Assembly: GCF_000374165.1 (NCBI RefSeq)
Contig: NZ_KB893745.1
Span: 1 to 48,892 of the forward strand
Reading direction: 5' to 3'
DNA length: 48,892 bases
DNA from: Parafrankia elaeagni
GTDB lineage: Bacteria; Actinomycetota; Actinomycetes; Frankiales; Frankiaceae
The position numbers and the translations under genes are program-made. The notes beneath the pieces are model-generated. The model had not been told where the DNA came from, did not search any database, and saw only the letters and a program-made list of their open reading frames with translations. This document shows positions 7,058 to 14,749 of the stretch, piece after piece (within the stretch, counting starts at the first letter, position 1; each line of letters begins with the position of its first letter).

Positions 7058-8884
<1,827 letters not shown>

Positions 8885-8900: not shown

Positions 8901-9875
8901 TCATCTCCAGCCCGGCGCCGTCCAGACCGACGTCTGGCTCGGCCAGGCGGCGGGGATGCGTTCCAGGATGCCGCCGGCGAAGGTGTGGGACAGTCCGAGC
9001 GGTTCCAGGTGGACGTAGCCGATGTGGCAGTCGCACCGGGGGACGGGACACGGTCGGGGGCGCAGCGCCGCGCGGAACGAACCGTCGTACAGGTTGCCCA
9101 GCACGGCCGGGACGAAGTGGCAGCGCCGAACCGTCCCCTCGCCGTCCACGGACACGACGGTCTCGCCGGTTCGGCAGGGCAGGCCGCGGCTGGGATGCGG
9201 GTGGCGGCTGTGGGCGAACAGCGGGTCGATCTCCGCCCAGCCGGCGGCCTCGGCGTCGGTATAGGTACGGCCCTCGGCCGCGTTCACCCACAGGTAGACC
9301 TCGCGGGGGAGATCCCCGCGCAGGCGGCGTGCCGCGTCCAGATGCTCGGGCTGCCCCACGACGCCGGCGCTGAAGCGGACTCCCCGTGCGGTCAGGTCCC
9401 GGCACCGGGCAAGGAAACGCTCGTACCGCACCTGGCCCGGGTGGTAGGTGCACCACAGAGCGAGCCGGGACGGATCCGCGTCGGCCGTCCAGTCGACCCG
9501 GTGACTGAGATTGGTCTGGATCGCGACCCGTTCCACCTGCGGGCAGTGGCTGAGCTCCACCAGCGCCCGCCGGTACCAGGAACGGGCGAGGCCCTCGCCC
9601 CACGGCGTGAACAGCACCGAGACACCGTGGCTCTGCTCCCGGACCCAGCCGACGAAACGCTCGAGCGCCGCCCGGTCCGCCCGCAGCTGCGCGGGCGTGT
9701 CCCGCCGTTTCGCGAACGGGCAGTAGGGGCAGTCGTAGTCACAGCTGGCCAGCGGGCCGCGATAGAGGATCGTCAGCTGCCGCGGGGCGATGCGGTCGTG
9801 GCGCTCGGGCACGGGCTCGGGCACGGGTCCGGGTGCACGTCCGGGTACGGGGCCGGGCGGGAGTGGGAGTGCCAT
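8901..9875 (-). CDS. STM4011-family radical SAM protein
   Basis: This 324-residue protein has a radical SAM cluster motif CxxxCxxC at C45-C49-C52 (S-C-D-Y-D-C-P-Y-C-P). The C-terminal third has further Cys residues in a SPASM/twitch-like arrangement: L-P-C-R-T-G, D-G-E-G-T-V-R-R-C, L-G-N-L-Y-D-G-S and C-x5-C-x-C-H-I-G-Y. It therefore probably binds a second iron-sulfur cluster. Its ATG shares one base with the stop of the STM4012-type gene (TGATG). It is the last gene of the five-gene operon. The first 25 residues are P/G/V repeats and the true start could be slightly internal. The substrate is unknown; SPASM-like radical SAM proteins often modify peptides, but no precursor peptide was found here. 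Confidence 0.85.
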   Translation of the reverse strand: MALPLPPGPVPGRAPGPVPEPVPERHDRIAPRQLTILYRGPLASCDYDCPYCPFAKRRDTPAQLRADRAALERFVGWVREQSHGVSVLFTPWGEGLARSWYRRALVELSHCPQVERVAIQTNLSHRVDWTADADPSRLALWCTYHPGQVRYERFLARCRDLTARGVRFSAGVVGQPEHLDAARRLRGDLPREVYLWVNAAEGRTYTDAEAAGWAEIDPLFAHSRHPHPSRGLPCRTGETVVSVDGEGTVRRCHFVPAVLGNLYDGSFRAALRPRPCPVPRCDCHIGYVHLEPLGLSHTFAGGILERIPAAWPSQTSVWTAPGWR

Positions 9876-11266
9876 CAGTGCGGGGTGTAGCCGGTCATCA
9901 GGGTGCGGACCTGCGGTGAGAACAGGGCGGGGCCCAGAGCGTCGGAACGGGCCAGGCCGTCGGGGGTCAGCCGCAGGGTGGTCGGGGTCTGCTCCAGCCA
10001 GCCATGGTCGGCGAAGGCGGTGAGGTCGAAGTCGGTGGCCGCGTCGGTGCCGAAACGTTCCCGGTAGGCGGCCCGGTCCAGGCCGTCGGCCTGCAGCAGT
10101 GACTGGATCAGGTGGCGGCGGCGGGGCTCGTCGCCGGTGAGGGCGAAACCGACCCGGGCGCTCGCGAACTCGGTCTCCCGGACGTAGTCATCGATGATCG
10201 CGCGCACGTGCCGGGCACCCACCGCGTACTCGAACGAGTAGTGCAGGGCCGAGGTGTAGGAACGGGCGCCGCACCCCAGGCCGACCATCCCGTCGGTCTG
10301 GCAGCAGTACTCCGCCCCGGTCGGGTGCCGCCCGGGAACGCGGTTCGCGGCGCCAGCGGTACCGGGGGTGTCAGTGGTGCCGGGGGTGCCGGGGGCGCCA
10401 GTGGTGCCGGGGGTGTCAGTGGTGCCGGGGGCGCCAGTGGTGCCGGGGGGCAGGCGGAACATGCGCATGGAGACCTGCTCGTACCCGTTCGCCAGGAGGT
10501 GGTCGCGGCCGAGGCGGTACAGCTGCAGGCGCTGGTCGTCCCAGTCGAGCTCGCGCCGGCCCAGGCCGGTCAGCGGGCGGACGTACAGCGGGTACAGGTA
10601 CAGCTCCTCCGGGCGCCAGGCGAGGGCGGCGTCCAGGGAGTGCAGCCAGGTGGCCGGGGTCTGGCCGCCGATGCCGTAGATCAGGTCGATGTTGAGCGTC
10701 GGGAAGCCCGCGGCGCGGATGCGTTCCAGCGCGGACTCGACCTCGGCCCGCCGCTGGGGCCGGCCGGCCGCGCGGGCCTCGCCGTCCAGGAAGCTCTGCA
10801 CGCCGATCGAGACACGGGTGGTGCCGCGTTCACGCAGGACGGCGAGGCGGTCGGCCGTCGCGGTGGCCGGGGAGGTCTCCACCCCGAGCGGGATGGCGCC
10901 CAGCGGGGCGAGGCGGGCGGCGATGTCGCAGAGGCGCCCCAGCTCGGGGGCGGTCAGGTAGGTGGGGGTGCCGCCGCCGAAGGCCGCCGTGGCGAACGCG
11001 GCGTCGCCGAGGGCGTCCGCGACACCGGTGGCCTGGCGTTCGAGTGCGTCGAGGTAGGCGCCGGTGAGCTCCTCGGGCGCGCCCGTGCGGGTGAACAGGT
11101 TGCAGAAACCGCATCGCATCTCGCAGAACGGGACGTGCAGGTAGAGGAACAGCGCGGAGCGGTCCTGGGCGGCCCATACGTCCCGCAGCGCGGGCCTGGG
11201 TGACAGCGGGCGGTAGGCGGTCTTGTGCGGGTACGCGTACACGTACTGCTGGTAGGGCCCGTTCAT
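9875..11266 (-). CDS. STM4012-family radical SAM protein (HemN-like)
   Basis: This 463-residue protein has CxxxCxxC at C48-C52-C55 (V-P-F-C-E-M-R-C-G-F-C-N) and the HemN-like features F-G-G-G-T-P-T-Y, G-V-E-T-S-P and R-V-S-I-G-V-Q-S. It resembles oxygen-independent coproporphyrinogen oxidases, but in this gene setting it belongs to the STM4012 family, so a role in haem synthesis should not be assumed. Residues about 272-305 are a P-G-T-T repeat insert encoded by a GC-rich minisatellite. Directly after it come Y-C-C-Q and G-L-G-C-G-A-R-S-Y, as in HemN-type proteins. Its start overlaps the STM4013-type stop by four bases (ATGA), so translation is probably coupled. Confidence 0.88.
   Translation of the reverse strand: MNGPYQQYVYAYPHKTAYRPLSPRPALRDVWAAQDRSALFLYLHVPFCEMRCGFCNLFTRTGAPEELTGAYLDALERQATGVADALGDAAFATAAFGGGTPTYLTAPELGRLCDIAARLAPLGAIPLGVETSPATATADRLAVLRERGTTRVSIGVQSFLDGEARAAGRPQRRAEVESALERIRAAGFPTLNIDLIYGIGGQTPATWLHSLDAALAWRPEELYLYPLYVRPLTGLGRRELDWDDQRLQLYRLGRDHLLANGYEQVSMRMFRLPPGTTGAPGTTDTPGTTGAPGTPGTTDTPGTAGAANRVPGRHPTGAEYCCQTDGMVGLGCGARSYTSALHYSFEYAVGARHVRAIIDDYVRETEFASARVGFALTGDEPRRRHLIQSLLQADGLDRAAYRERFGTDAATDFDLTAFADHGWLEQTPTTLRLTPDGLARSDALGPALFSPQVRTLMTGYTPH
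10354..10453 (-). repeat. In-frame minisatellite in the STM4012-type gene
   Basis: Units such as gtcagtggtgccggggg and gccagtggtgccggggg alternate about five times. On the coding strand they give P-G-T-T-D-T / P-G-T-T-G-A repeats. The frame is kept, and the insert sits between two conserved parts of the enzyme. Confidence 0.75.
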
Positions 11267-12054
11267 GAGAGCACGAACTCTCCGTAGGGGACGGTCCAGA
11301 CGACCTCGTGGCCGAGGCGGTGGCCGGTGTGGCCGTCCTCGCCGTACGCCGTTCCGTGGTCCGAGCAGACGATCACGAGGCAGGGGCGGCGCATCAGGGC
11401 GAACAGGCGCCCGAGCTGCCGGTCGACGTGACGCAGCGCCGCGGCGTGGGAGTCGCGCGAGTCACCGTGGCCGCGGGTGGCGCCGGCCAGGTAGAACCAG
11501 TTCGGCTGGTGCAGTGCGGCCACGTTGAGCAGCAGGAACAGCCGCCGGTCGGGCGGAAGGCGCCCGACCACCTCGCCGACCCGGTCGATCTGGTGGCTGA
11601 GGGAGTCGGGATCGGCGACGCCGAAGCCGGGCTCCCAGTGGCTCTCGGTGAACAGCGACGGCAGCGCTGACCCGAGCGGGCTGAGCTTGTTGAAGAAGCC
11701 GACCCCGCCCACGCAGACCGTGTGGTAGCCGATCTCGGCCAGGCCGGTGGGGAGGTCCGCCGCGTCGAAGGTCCAGGTGCCGGGAGCGGTGGTCTCGCTG
11801 CCGGGGAACCGCGCGGCGAACAGGCGGGGGTGCGGGCCGGGCCGGGTCGGCGTCGGCAGGAATCCCGCGAGCATGGCGGTGTGCGCCGCGTAGGTGAAGC
11901 TGCCGGGGGTGTGGCGCCGTTCCCAGCGCCCACCGGGCAGCAGGCCGCGCAGGGTCGGGGTCTGCTCGGCGGCGGCGAGTTCGGCCGCGACGTCGTAGCG
12001 CAGGGTGTCGAGGGTCACCAGCAGCAGGTCGTGGCTGCCGATGACCTCGTTCAT
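11263..12054 (-). CDS. STM4013/SEN3800-family hydrolase (alkaline phosphatase superfamily)
   Basis: This 263-residue protein starts at ATG 12054, overlapping the previous stop by four bases; a longer open frame upstream is only the shadow of the ATP-grasp gene. It has the metal-binding start of the sulfatase / phosphodiesterase fold (L-V-T-L-D-T-L-R-Y-D, about residues 10-19), a T-P-G-S-F-T-Y-A-A-H-T-A-M-L-A-G segment where the nucleophile lies in this superfamily, and a late C-S-D-H-G-T-A-Y-G plus H-T-G-H-R-L-G-H for the second metal site. It is compact compared with true sulfatases. It is the third gene of the operon. It should cleave a phosphate or sulfate ester; the substrate is unknown. 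Confidence 0.85.
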   Translation of the reverse strand: MNEVIGSHDLLLVTLDTLRYDVAAELAAAEQTPTLRGLLPGGRWERRHTPGSFTYAAHTAMLAGFLPTPTRPGPHPRLFAARFPGSETTAPGTWTFDAADLPTGLAEIGYHTVCVGGVGFFNKLSPLGSALPSLFTESHWEPGFGVADPDSLSHQIDRVGEVVGRLPPDRRLFLLLNVAALHQPNWFYLAGATRGHGDSRDSHAAALRHVDRQLGRLFALMRRPCLVIVCSDHGTAYGEDGHTGHRLGHEVVWTVPYGEFVLS

Positions 12055-13160
12055 GTCGCGCACGCCGCCAGTGCCGCGTCGATCTGGGCGGCGTAGGTGT
12101 CCAGGCCTTCCGCCCGGGTGCCGGGCAGGCCGGTGATCCCGGGCAGCAGATCGCCGAAGGCGTTGACCTCGCCGACGGCCACCCGCCGCCAGCCGATCCC
12201 GACGAGGAGGTCGACCCCGACCATGAGACTGCCGGGGAAGCACGCGGCGGCCTGGGTGCACACGCCCAGGGCCCGCTCCCAGCCGGCGGGGCCGAACGCG
12301 TCACGCACCGCCGCGACCGAACCCCGCAGGCCGCCGAGGTGCAGGTTGGTCATCGGGGTGCGGCTCGTGCGGACAACCACATGAGTCGGCTCCCCGGCGA
12401 TCACCACCACCCGCAGATCGAGGACACGGCCACCCAGCGCGGCCTTGGGCAGCCACCGCTCCACGTGCAGCCCGTCCGGTGCCAGCAGGTCGATCAGCCT
12501 GGCCACCTCGCTCTCGCCCTCGTGGACACGGACCCGCAGCGAGTTCACGAGACCGGTGCCGTTCCCGCCGCGGGAGCCGCCGCCGGTGCCGCTCCCGGTG
12601 AGCGCGGCGGAGGTGACGGCCCTGATCCGCCCGGCGGGCGTGGCCCGCAACGCCACGACACCGGACGCGGACGAGCCGTGCGCCGGTTTCACGAACACCT
12701 GGTGCAGGCCGGCCCGCACCATCCGGGCGCGCAGCTCGGCGTAGCCGTGCACGGGTGGCAGCGCCTCCGGGACGGGGACACCGGCCGCCGCCAGCCGGGC
12801 GTGGCAGAGTCTCTTGTCGCACATCACGGCGATGTCGTCGACGTCGCCCAGCAGGCGGGCACCGGCCCGCTCGGCCGCGGCGGCGACGCGCCCCAGCGCC
12901 GCGGTGAAGGCCGCGTACCACCGCGCACCGCCGCCGACCCGGGCCGGATCACCGGGGCCGCGCAGCAGGGCGTCCACCTCGGGATCGTCGCCGGGCGAGT
13001 CGATCCGCAGCGGCGTGCCGGGCCCGACCGGCACCTCACCGCCGCGCAGCACCTGAGCCCACGGGACGACACGGGGCGCGGCCAGGCCCGCCGTGCGGCA
13101 CGCGGCGGCGAACAACCCGGTGCGCCGGTCGCCCGGCGCACCGACCACGGTGAACATCAT
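12051..13160 (-). CDS. STM4014-family ATP-grasp-like protein
   Basis: This 369-residue protein starts at ATG 13160 (an in-frame ATG follows at 13157). It looks like an ATP-grasp ligase. D-K-R-L-C-H-A-R-L-A-A-A-G-V-P-V-P begins the central domain (about 115-130), V-F-V-K-P-A-H-G-S-S-A-S-G is the ATP-binding loop with its Lys, and late segments D-L-R-V-V-V-I-A-G and G-V-D-L-L-V-G ... V-N-A-F-G-D (metal-binding D and N) complete the pattern. A short G-T-G-G-G-S-R-G-G insert breaks the middle. ATP-grasp enzymes join a carboxylate to an amine or thiol via acyl phosphate; the substrate here is not known. It overlaps both neighbours by four bases. Confidence 0.82.
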   Translation of the reverse strand: MMFTVVGAPGDRRTGLFAAACRTAGLAAPRVVPWAQVLRGGEVPVGPGTPLRIDSPGDDPEVDALLRGPGDPARVGGGARWYAAFTAALGRVAAAAERAGARLLGDVDDIAVMCDKRLCHARLAAAGVPVPEALPPVHGYAELRARMVRAGLHQVFVKPAHGSSASGVVALRATPAGRIRAVTSAALTGSGTGGGSRGGNGTGLVNSLRVRVHEGESEVARLIDLLAPDGLHVERWLPKAALGGRVLDLRVVVIAGEPTHVVVRTSRTPMTNLHLGGLRGSVAAVRDAFGPAGWERALGVCTQAAACFPGSLMVGVDLLVGIGWRRVAVGEVNAFGDLLPGITGLPGTRAEGLDTYAAQIDAALAACAT

Positions 13161-14122
13161 TCGGAGACCGCGACGTAGAACCAGCCGTCCTCCGGCTTCT
13201 CCTGCTGCTCGAGGTCTACCTCGACGCCGGGCAGCGCGGCGCGCACGCGCTCGACCATGGCGTCGCCCAGGAAGTGGTGGTGCAGGTCGAGCCGGGCCAG
13301 GTGGGTGAGTGACTGACCGGACAGCAGCGACTCGGCGCCCCGGTCGGTGAGCGCCCCCATGGCGAGGCTGAGCGACGCCAGCCGCGCGACGACCGGCGCG
13401 CTCGCGACCACGGCAGCCACCTCGTCCGCGATCCGGGCGTCCTCCAGCCCCAGGTGCGCCAGCGCGGGCAGCCGTTCGCCGCCCAGGACGCCGGCCAGGT
13501 CGGCCGCGGTCGCGTCGCCGCCGTAGTCGTCGGTGCCCAGCCACAGATCGAGGTGTTCCAGGGCGGGCAGGTCACTCTCGCCCACGGCCCGCACCACCGC
13601 GGCGGGCAGCCCGCCCGACTCGAACCGCAGCCTTCTCAGCGCACGGCTGTGGACGGGACGCAGCCCCAGCCCCTCACTCCCGCGGACCTCCAGCTGCTCC
13701 AGCCCGGGGAAGGCTTCGAACAGCGGCGTGACGTCGGACTGCTCGATCCAGGAGATCTCCGACTCCTCGAGCACGATGTCGCCCAGGAACAGCGCGCGGA
13801 GCGCGGGCAGCTGCCCGGCGGCCTGCACCAGCCGGCCCACGGGACCGACGGCGTCCGTGGCCTCGTAGGAGGCGCCCCAGTAGCCGATGACCAGATGGGT
13901 CACCGTGGCGGTGTCGACCTCGTCGAGGAACGCCTGGAAGACGTCGCCGAAGCTGGGACCGTCGAACCAGGTGGCGACCCGCCAGGCGACATCGCCAGGG
14001 GAGGCCGGGGGAGCGGACGTGGCGGACCGATAGTGATCGTCTGACGACTCACCGTCCTGCTCGTACCGGAAGCCCCACACCGGCTTCCCGGCGAACTCGG
14101 TGAGATGTTCGTTGATGGTCAT
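13157..14122 (-). CDS. STM4015-family leucine-rich-repeat-like protein
   Basis: This 321-residue protein has no catalytic motif. From about residue 95 it is built of irregular leucine-rich repeats: L-P-A-L-R-A-L-F-L-G-D, F-P-G-L-E-Q-L-E-V-R-G, L-P-A-L-E-H-L-D-L-W-L, L-P-A-L-A-H-L-G-L and L-T-H-L-A-R-L-D-L-H-H. These predict a curved LRR solenoid suited to protein binding. The first 90 residues form a separate N-terminal region with several Trp (V-W-G-F-R-Y, W-R-V-A-T-W-F-D). It is the first gene of the operon and its stop overlaps the ATP-grasp start. It may be the recognition or scaffold partner, or the substrate, of the four enzymes; that is inference. Confidence 0.8.
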   Translation of the reverse strand: MTINEHLTEFAGKPVWGFRYEQDGESSDDHYRSATSAPPASPGDVAWRVATWFDGPSFGDVFQAFLDEVDTATVTHLVIGYWGASYEATDAVGPVGRLVQAAGQLPALRALFLGDIVLEESEISWIEQSDVTPLFEAFPGLEQLEVRGSEGLGLRPVHSRALRRLRFESGGLPAAVVRAVGESDLPALEHLDLWLGTDDYGGDATAADLAGVLGGERLPALAHLGLEDARIADEVAAVVASAPVVARLASLSLAMGALTDRGAESLLSGQSLTHLARLDLHHHFLGDAMVERVRAALPGVEVDLEQQEKPEDGWFYVAVSE

Positions 14123-14344
14123 CTGGTTCCCTTCGGGACGCCCCCTGCGGAAACCGTCCTATCAGCCGCCACCGACACGACCAGACGGCGCAGGCCTGTC
14201 ATGAAGCCTGTCATTGGGCGTGGCAGTGCCCGGTCCCGACCTGCCGGCCGCCGTGACCTGCGAGTCCGTCGCCGCGGCCGGTGAGCTGCTGACGGGCGGG
14301 TCCCCGGGGCGGCCGACCGCTGTGGCTTCTCGTAGCCTTCTCGG

Positions 14345-14749
14345 ATGACCTGGCGAGCGCTGCATCTCTCCCAGCCCATCGAGCGTGCCCCCGAGGAGGT
14401 CGCCGCCTTCGCGGGGAACCCGGAGAACCTTCCGCTGTGGGCCGCGGGACTCAGCAGCGGCATCCGGCGGGAGGAAGGGCGCTGGGTGACGGACTCGCCG
14501 ATGGGAAAGGTCGAGGTGTCCTTCTCGGGTCCGGTGGAGCACGGTGTGCTCGATCACGACGTGACCCTCCCGGACGGCACGGTGACGCACAACCCGCTCC
14601 GCGTGCTCCGCAACGGCGAGGGGAGCGAGGTCGTCTTCACGCTCTTCCAGCCTCCCGGCGTGGCGGATGACGCCTTCGACCGGGACGCGGCGCACGTGCG
14701 CGCGGATCTCGCCCGGCTGCGGAACCTCCTGGAGTCCCGGGGGCGGTAG
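14345..14749 (+). CDS. SRPBCC-fold (polyketide cyclase/START-like) protein
   Basis: This 134-residue protein starts at ATG 14345. It has the layout of a small SRPBCC domain: a first strand followed by a helix with A-P-E-E-V-A-A-F-A-G-N-P-E-N-L-P-L-W, then V-T-D-S-P-M-G-K-V-E-V-S-F, an L-P-D-G-T-V-T-H-N-P-L-R-V turn, and a long C-terminal helix (V-R-A-D-L-A-R-L-R-N-L-L). Such proteins bind hydrophobic ligands in a deep pocket; the ligand is unknown. No Shine-Dalgarno is obvious, so the mRNA may be leaderless. It is divergent from the STM401x operon over 222 bases and is not otherwise linked to it. Confidence 0.75.
   Translation: MTWRALHLSQPIERAPEEVAAFAGNPENLPLWAAGLSSGIRREEGRWVTDSPMGKVEVSFSGPVEHGVLDHDVTLPDGTVTHNPLRVLRNGEGSEVVFTLFQPPGVADDAFDRDAAHVRADLARLRNLLESRGR

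Follow-up and report, generated by a model that had tools for sequence, protein, structure and literature searches.

The leucine-rich-repeat protein STM4015, with its conserved C-terminal glutamate, as the probable substrate of the STM4014-STM4011 enzymes

Background

ATP-grasp ligases include enzymes that act on the carboxyl ends of proteins. According to PMC10433800, LysX attaches an amino acid to the gamma-carboxyl group of the C-terminal glutamate of LysW, and GSWGR is the motif by which LysX recognizes LysW. RimK, as described in PMC10092738, appends glutamates at the C-terminus of ribosomal protein S6. Among radical S-adenosylmethionine (SAM) enzymes, NocN is described as a methylase of thiopeptide biosynthesis, in which Tyr34 stacks on the second SAM (SAM-II) (PMC13266988). 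Here we report on an operon that combines relatives of such enzymes, i.e., the five-gene set STM4015-4014-4013-4012-4011 of Parafrankia elaeagni (assembly GCF_000374165.1). It was analyzed in a window consisting of the whole stretch of 48,892 nucleotides taken from contig NZ_KB893745.1.

The five families are named solely after Salmonella locus tags. In the literature searched, the STM locus tags of the set appear in tables only; the same searches returned nothing on the structure 2RA8 (Bacteroides fragilis Q64V53, a relative of STM4015) or its accession, and nothing joining leucine-rich repeat (LRR), radical SAM and RiPP (ribosomally synthesized and post-translationally modified peptide) terms. 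An initial reading made from the window alone (hereafter the sequence-only reading) had suggested that the set modifies a peptide, protein or small molecule, and had seen no precursor peptide. The new proposal made here is that the LRR protein STM4015 itself is probably the substrate, through its C-terminal tail.

Composition and co-occurrence of the gene set

The operon occupies positions 14122-8901 on the minus strand of the window, where the five same-strand genes overlap at junctions that read, from 5' to 3', ATGA, ATGA, ATGA and TGATG, and the Salmonella gene set has the same order. Both points had been made by the sequence-only reading and are confirmed. Family calls were made with NCBIfam models (the names of which carry no function) and their curated cut-offs. 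In this profile search, which the sequence-only reading had proposed as a check of its family names, all five window proteins scored above cut-off, in order:

14122-13157, minus strand: STM4015, leucine-rich-repeat protein, 321 amino acids (aa), proposed substrate; NF038076, 362.5 bits (cut-off 275)
13160-12051, minus strand: STM4014, ATP-grasp ligase, 369 aa; NF038074, 433.5 bits (cut-off 175)
12054-11263, minus strand: STM4013, alkaline-phosphatase-superfamily hydrolase, 263 aa; NF038075, 404.3 bits (cut-off 250)
11266-9875, minus strand: STM4012, HemN-like radical SAM protein, 463 aa; NF006067, 616.3 bits (cut-off 380)
9875-8901, minus strand: STM4011, radical SAM protein with a partial SPASM-like C-terminal domain, 324 aa; NF038073, 407.9 bits (cut-off 200)

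In a sample of 296 genomes from the phylum, which included the own genome, each of the five families was found above cut-off in six genomes, and these were the same six genomes for all five families. Matches below cut-off were common for STM4014 and STM4013 (any match in 59 and 58 of the 296 genomes, respectively), as expected because these are large superfamilies. Given the same six genomes and the fixed order, the five-gene set is not a chance assembly.

Further loci were fetched through a motif of the LRR body, [ED]E[CSN]E[IV]SWI, and the tail was therefore not selected for. The fetched loci represent the best 80 of at least 563 relatives, all actinobacterial by title and hence close relatives; other phyla are represented by plasmid records and 2ra8. 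All five genes were present in 68 of the 79 fetched loci, in the same order and on one strand in all 68.

A conserved C-terminal tail of STM4015

In the window, STM4015 ends in a short tail that follows a variable acidic linker:

13160-13183 (stop codon 13157-13159), minus strand: C-terminal tail WFYVAVSE ending in Glu321, proposed modification site

The last residue (E321) was invariant in an alignment of 11 STM4015 proteins from distant bacteria, and a terminal Glu was found in 143 of the 144 closed STM4015 open reading frames (ORFs) from the 79 actinobacterial loci. The sole ORF without it (L041:4140-5468) is partial and covers profile positions 17-215 of 299 (66%). In a non-redundant set, consisting of 126 of 141 complete proteins retained by a redundancy filter and 13 proteins picked by hand, all 139 end in Glu; as a coverage filter had kept the L041 exception out of this set, 143 of 144 is the count to be preferred. 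The 13 hand-picked proteins, all of which end in Glu, come from Actinomycetota, Pseudomonadota (alpha and gamma), Deinococcota, Bacillota, Cyanobacteriota and Bacteroidota, and the genera in the non-redundant set include Salmonella, Bacteroides, Deinococcus, Paenibacillus, Methylobacterium and Calothrix.

The residues ahead of the terminal Glu were also conserved among the 144 ORFs, i.e., V at position -3 (134 ORFs), A or E at -4 (132), V or I at -5 (137) and Y or F at -6 (140), with R at -7 in 86 and W at -8 in 87; position -2 was Ser in 86, Ala in 38 and Gly in 8. Tail variants are NAMYTE in Salmonella, YPMITE in Bacteroides, YPSLTE in Paenibacillus, FVALGE in Deinococcus and YCSVAE in Calothrix. 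As a control, the commonest last residue was determined for the other families, and was T in 21 of 61 STM4014, R in 8 of 39 STM4013, R in 35 of 46 STM4012 and R in 15 of 50 STM4011 sequences (one STM4011 row, from Bacteroides, is trimmed, and its last residue is not the natural one).

In a search at the DNA level with a strict tail pattern, STM4015 was the single site of the own genome. Across the ten genomes searched, four sites belonged to STM4015 and one further site lacked a stop codon; five of the ten genomes had no site, including two with the operon, which were missed because their tails deviate from the pattern. Among 91 scanned stretches, all 136 ORFs of at least 60 aa that end in the tail were STM4015, and a separate short precursor was thus ruled out for ORFs of this size. 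The view of the sequence-only reading that there is no precursor peptide is not supported: the evidence points to the LRR protein itself, through the conserved tail that this reading had missed. The tandem LRR copies and the frequent neighbors at other loci were not visible to it from the window.

The LRR-like character assigned to STM4015 in that reading is visible in the predicted model and in 2ra8, although Pfam gave no LRR match in the window protein. 2RA8 belongs to the same family (E = 3.6e-62) and its aligned end reads YPMITE, but it carries an extra N-terminal part ahead of the match. The tail is partly ordered in the STM4015 model and aligned in 2ra8.

More than one STM4015 copy was present in 35 of the 79 loci, alongside one enzyme set, with a maximum of seven or eight copies per locus (the count of eight, in L041, includes the partial ORF). 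In loci holding STM4014, all 130 STM4015 copies lie upstream of it on the same strand. Among same-locus paralogues (118 pairs from 34 loci), identity was 0.61 over aligned residues and 0.71 over the last six residues, and only 0.16 in the linker (positions -16 to -9). Orphan copies also keep the tail, e.g., in Streptomyces cadmiisoli, where one lies approx. 24 kb from a full operon on the same plasmid.

The ATP-grasp ligase STM4014

The predicted model of STM4014 had a mean predicted local distance difference test (pLDDT) value of 92.3. A Foldseek search with this model returned ArgX in complex with LysW first, followed by PsnB (a graspetide ligase), LysX and RimK. Ranked by Z score, 3vpb (ArgX:LysW, 23.2), RimK (22.9 and 22.8) and LysX (22.7) were tied; lower values were obtained for D-cycloserine synthetase (21.5), the ATPase of 5-aminoimidazole ribonucleotide (AIR) carboxylase (21.4) and glutathione synthetase (21.2), and the lowest listed for inositol pyrophosphate kinases (approx. 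21) and D-alanine ligases (approx. 20). Three conserved residues were located:

12162-12212, minus strand: STM4014 D317, E331 and N333, presumed metal ligands, at least 97% conserved in 61 sequences

The metal-ligand role of these residues is presumed by analogy with ATP-grasp enzymes. The nearest relatives of STM4014, i.e., LysX and RimK, thus work on protein ends of the type found in STM4015.

The resemblance to LysX/ArgX and LysW thus comprises an ATP-grasp ligase of the LysX fold and a partner that ends in Glu (Glu321 in the window). Conversely, GSWGR is absent from the window STM4014, which scored far under the LysX family cut-off; the partner is an LRR protein of approx. 320 aa rather than a small zinc protein, and the place of the lysine-pathway enzymes is taken in the operon by two radical SAM enzymes and a phosphodiesterase-like enzyme. 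STM4014 likewise differs from RimK, with 21.2 bits against a cut-off of 143.4 for the RimK model, another partner protein and additional radical SAM partners. Overall, STM4014 may work like LysX or RimK while being a member of neither family. The kinship of the ligase and the terminal Glu represent an agreement of two independent lines, short of proof.

The radical SAM enzymes and the hydrolase

Conserved residues of the remaining three enzymes are as follows:

11102-11143, minus strand: STM4012 Y42 and C48-x3-C52-x2-C55, invariant in 18 sequences
9720-9743, minus strand: STM4011 C45-x3-C49-x2-C52, radical SAM motif, invariant in 23 sequences
11893-11895, minus strand: STM4013 Thr54, candidate nucleophile, invariant in 16 sequences

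The structure-profile relatives of STM4012 are HemN (1olt, E = 1.9e-51), its closest solved relative, and NocN (9p2u, E = 3.1e-31). Y42 stands six residues before C48, as Tyr34 of NocN stands before Cys40, and the invariance of a tyrosine at this position makes two-SAM chemistry likely for STM4012. It shares these matches and the tyrosine with HemN and the class C methylases (NosN/NocN), but constitutes its own family (NF006067), which has a near-invariant N-terminal YPHKTAYR stretch. In the window, the family match of STM4012 is split by a collagen-like, low-complexity PGTT repeat insert (residues 274-305; window 10352-10447).

For STM4011, five further Cys (234, 252, 276, 281 and 283) were invariant in the same 23 sequences. 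Its C-terminal part matched SkfB, the maturation protein of the sporulation killing factor (6efn, E = 7e-4, profile positions 192-265), and this was the only match below 0.1. The SPASM-like label of the sequence-only reading needs a qualification: the SPASM match (15.8 bits; cut-off 21.5) and the Radical_SAM match fall below the Pfam cut-offs. STM4011 thus resembles SkfB and other maturases with auxiliary clusters in its CxxxCxxC motif and Cys-rich C-terminal part, but differs from them in having only five further invariant Cys, in its sub-cut-off SPASM match and in its substrate, which here would be a folded protein.

STM4013 matched the Pfam models Phosphodiest (30.5 bits; cut-off 23) and Sulfatase (28.9 bits; cut-off 25), and its relatives are nucleotide pyrophosphatases (7n1s, E = 3.7e-8) and sulfatases. 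D16, T54, D211, D232, H233, H245 and H249 were invariant in the 16 sequences. Pfam matches together with conserved Thr, Asp and His place the protein in the alkaline phosphatase superfamily, in which we take these residues to have their customary roles. Thr54, the candidate nucleophile, aligned with an SxT stretch of nucleotide pyrophosphatases in a region where the match is weak.

Proposed reaction and alternative explanations

From the gene set, its co-occurrence, the conservation of the tail, the folds and the conserved residues we infer a series of chemical steps, including their order, the amine and the outcome. STM4015 would present its C-terminal tail with the invariant Glu, and would probably be the substrate rather than a helper. 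STM4014, a ligase of the LysX/RimK kind, would phosphorylate a carboxylate of this Glu and join an amine to it, most likely an amino acid. STM4011, with its kinship to peptide maturases and its auxiliary Cys, and the HemN/NocN-like STM4012, probably with two SAMs, would subsequently modify either the added group or the tail, and the phosphodiesterase-like STM4013 would take off a phosphate or a related group. A single enzyme set would serve every STM4015 paralogue of a genome. We consider it reasonably likely that an amine is joined to the terminal Glu by STM4014 and elaborated by the radical enzymes, whether the group then stays on the protein or meets another fate. As many LRR bodies share one tail and the operon has no amide-releasing enzyme, our preference, rather than a finding, is that the modification remains on the LRR protein. 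A more specific possibility, which we hold only tentatively, is that many LRR bait proteins with the shared tail carry a ligated, radical-SAM-tailored cofactor or reactive group derived from an amino acid, the variable LRR body deciding the site of action.

If STM4015 is the substrate, no missing precursor need be sought any longer, and the chemistry may be read from a single protein of 320 aa. Maturation by ATP-grasp and radical SAM enzymes would reach beyond short peptides and include a repeat protein that is folded and has many paralogues, and a widespread orphan gene set would acquire a function that can be tested directly; under the bait proposal, too, the substrate of such a pathway would be a folded repeat protein and not a short peptide. 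As regards the sequence-only reading, the evidence supports a set that is conserved, co-occurs and probably acts on a protein or peptide.

The first rival to a lasting modification makes release the purpose: STM4015 would be a carrier, like LysW or a pearlin scaffold, on which STM4014 loads an amino acid that the radical SAM enzymes convert and an outside enzyme releases as a small molecule. This rests on the same tail and ligase evidence and has precedents in LysW and in 3-thiaglutamate made on the peptide TglA; transport genes also occur near some loci (an ABC set in 18-22, a major facilitator superfamily (MFS) gene in 24). We nevertheless regard it as unlikely, as the operon holds no releasing peptidase, none was recognized among the most frequent neighbour clusters (read by eye), the transport genes look like local synteny, and several divergent LRR carriers per enzyme set would not be expected. 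Less likely still is a RiPP-like route, in which the radical SAM enzymes crosslink or epimerize tail residues (the aromatic residue at -6, V at -3) and ring closure to a lactam or lactone falls to the ATP-grasp enzyme, in the manner of graspetide ligases. The third Foldseek rank of PsnB, the position of SkfB as best solved relative of STM4011 and the prevalence of Y or F at -6 (140 of 144 copies) are in its favor; Salmonella, on the other hand, has N at -6, and the last eight residues hold no invariant nucleophile (at -2, Ser, Ala and Gly alternate in the numbers given above), which makes a conserved ester or amide ring unlikely. A graspetide-type ring was rejected on this ground, i.e., the absence of a conserved nucleophile from the last eight residues of the 144 copies.

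LRR proteins commonly bind partners, and the tail, partly ordered in the model and aligned in 2ra8, might only be a docking tag for bringing STM4014 or STM4011 to a different substrate, encoded elsewhere. A docking tag would not have to stop precisely at a free carboxylate of Glu, as the tail does, with no extension, in 143 of 144 copies, and the ligase relatives of STM4014 act on such ends; we therefore consider this explanation very improbable. A service of STM4012 and the operon to haem or another tetrapyrrole, suggested by HemN as the closest solved relative, is hardly credible: all haem-family models listed remain far under their cut-offs (for STM4012, HemW 125.4 against 205.4 bits and HemN 114.8 against 324.95 bits), STM4011 matches none of them, and the proteins that constantly accompany it are an LRR protein and an ATP-grasp ligase. 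Haem synthesis, an assignment that would have counted against the sequence-only reading, was rejected by these cut-offs.

Distribution and variant loci

The closest named relative among the fetched loci is that of Parafrankia colletiae (STM4015 93%). Of the 11 incomplete loci, eight reach the end of the contig or of the fetched stretch, and three are truly incomplete (L094 without STM4014, L044 without STM4013 and L034 with a lone STM4015); in all three cases the missing STM4014 or STM4013 is present elsewhere in the genome. In the L094 genome, the displaced STM4014 immediately follows a further STM4015, likewise with a terminal Glu. Possible gene fusions place STM4014 in one open frame with STM4013 (L053, L063 and L065) or with STM4012 (L044).

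The full set was found in Actinomycetota, Pseudomonadota, Deinococcota and Bacillota, and a partial set in Bacteroidota. The latter, on a Bacteroides finegoldii plasmid (L014:8671-12688), comprises an STM4015 whose N-terminus carries a WGR domain, STM4014 and an STM4011 that is continued in the same protein by a HAD-like stretch (by eye); neither STM4013 nor STM4012 was found at this locus, and a search of it for tRNA genes gave none. A cyanobacterial plasmid, from Calothrix (L013:2014-3288), holds STM4015 by itself, with none of the other operon genes within the 12 kb inspected; cyanobacterial GUN4-domain proteins share its N-terminal part. E. coli complete genomes gave no near match to the Salmonella genes (megablast only). 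A search of viral contigs gave no confirmed relative; two Salmonella phage JD01 records (MW715619 and NC_073189) hold an STM4015 piece near the record start, which is perhaps packaged or contaminating host DNA.

Neighboring genes and flanks

A conserved sixth partner, for which the sequence-only reading had proposed a survey of gene neighborhoods, did not emerge, as none of the operon neighbors in the 91 stretches was universal. A DUF6745 gene and a gene for a protein of approx. 118 aa were each present in 54 of the 91 stretches (at least one of them in 60), and 47 of 48 pairs lie on the strand opposite the operon. Both neighbors often flank the operon (L012 and L120-L123 are further examples) and extend to Deinococcus and Methylobacterium, and the approx. 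118-aa protein has conserved GHxH, HEEH and QREY. DUF6745 was found in three of the six genomes with the set as compared to five of the 290 without it, and the own genome had no DUF6745 match; DUF6745 is thus accessory. No solved relative of DUF6745 was found; in the only Deinococcus DUF6745 protein scanned (L012), the N-terminal part is LRR-like.

The ATP-binding cassette (ABC) importer set, methionine-importer-like by eye, precedes the operon in 18-22 loci, all from Actinomadura or Thermomonospora (L018-L043, L052 and L067); together with the MFS genes it looks like local synteny. In Salmonella, a gene for a Cof-type HAD phosphatase overlaps STM4011. An anti-phage defence system was rejected, as the PADLOC defence models gave nothing except an 18.6-bit partial match of STM4012 to PDC-M51A over 81 residues.

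The operon is preceded by one intergenic stretch:

14123-14344, strand not assigned: upstream intergenic stretch that separates STM4015 from a divergent ORF (14345-14749, plus strand), presumed promoter from position only

A promoter and terminator scan found none, and the upstream stretch has no sigma-70-like site. The ORF upstream, which diverges from the operon, encodes 134 aa, and on the other side a 608-aa flavin-monooxygenase-like ORF (by eye; 7058-8884, plus strand) heads towards the operon.

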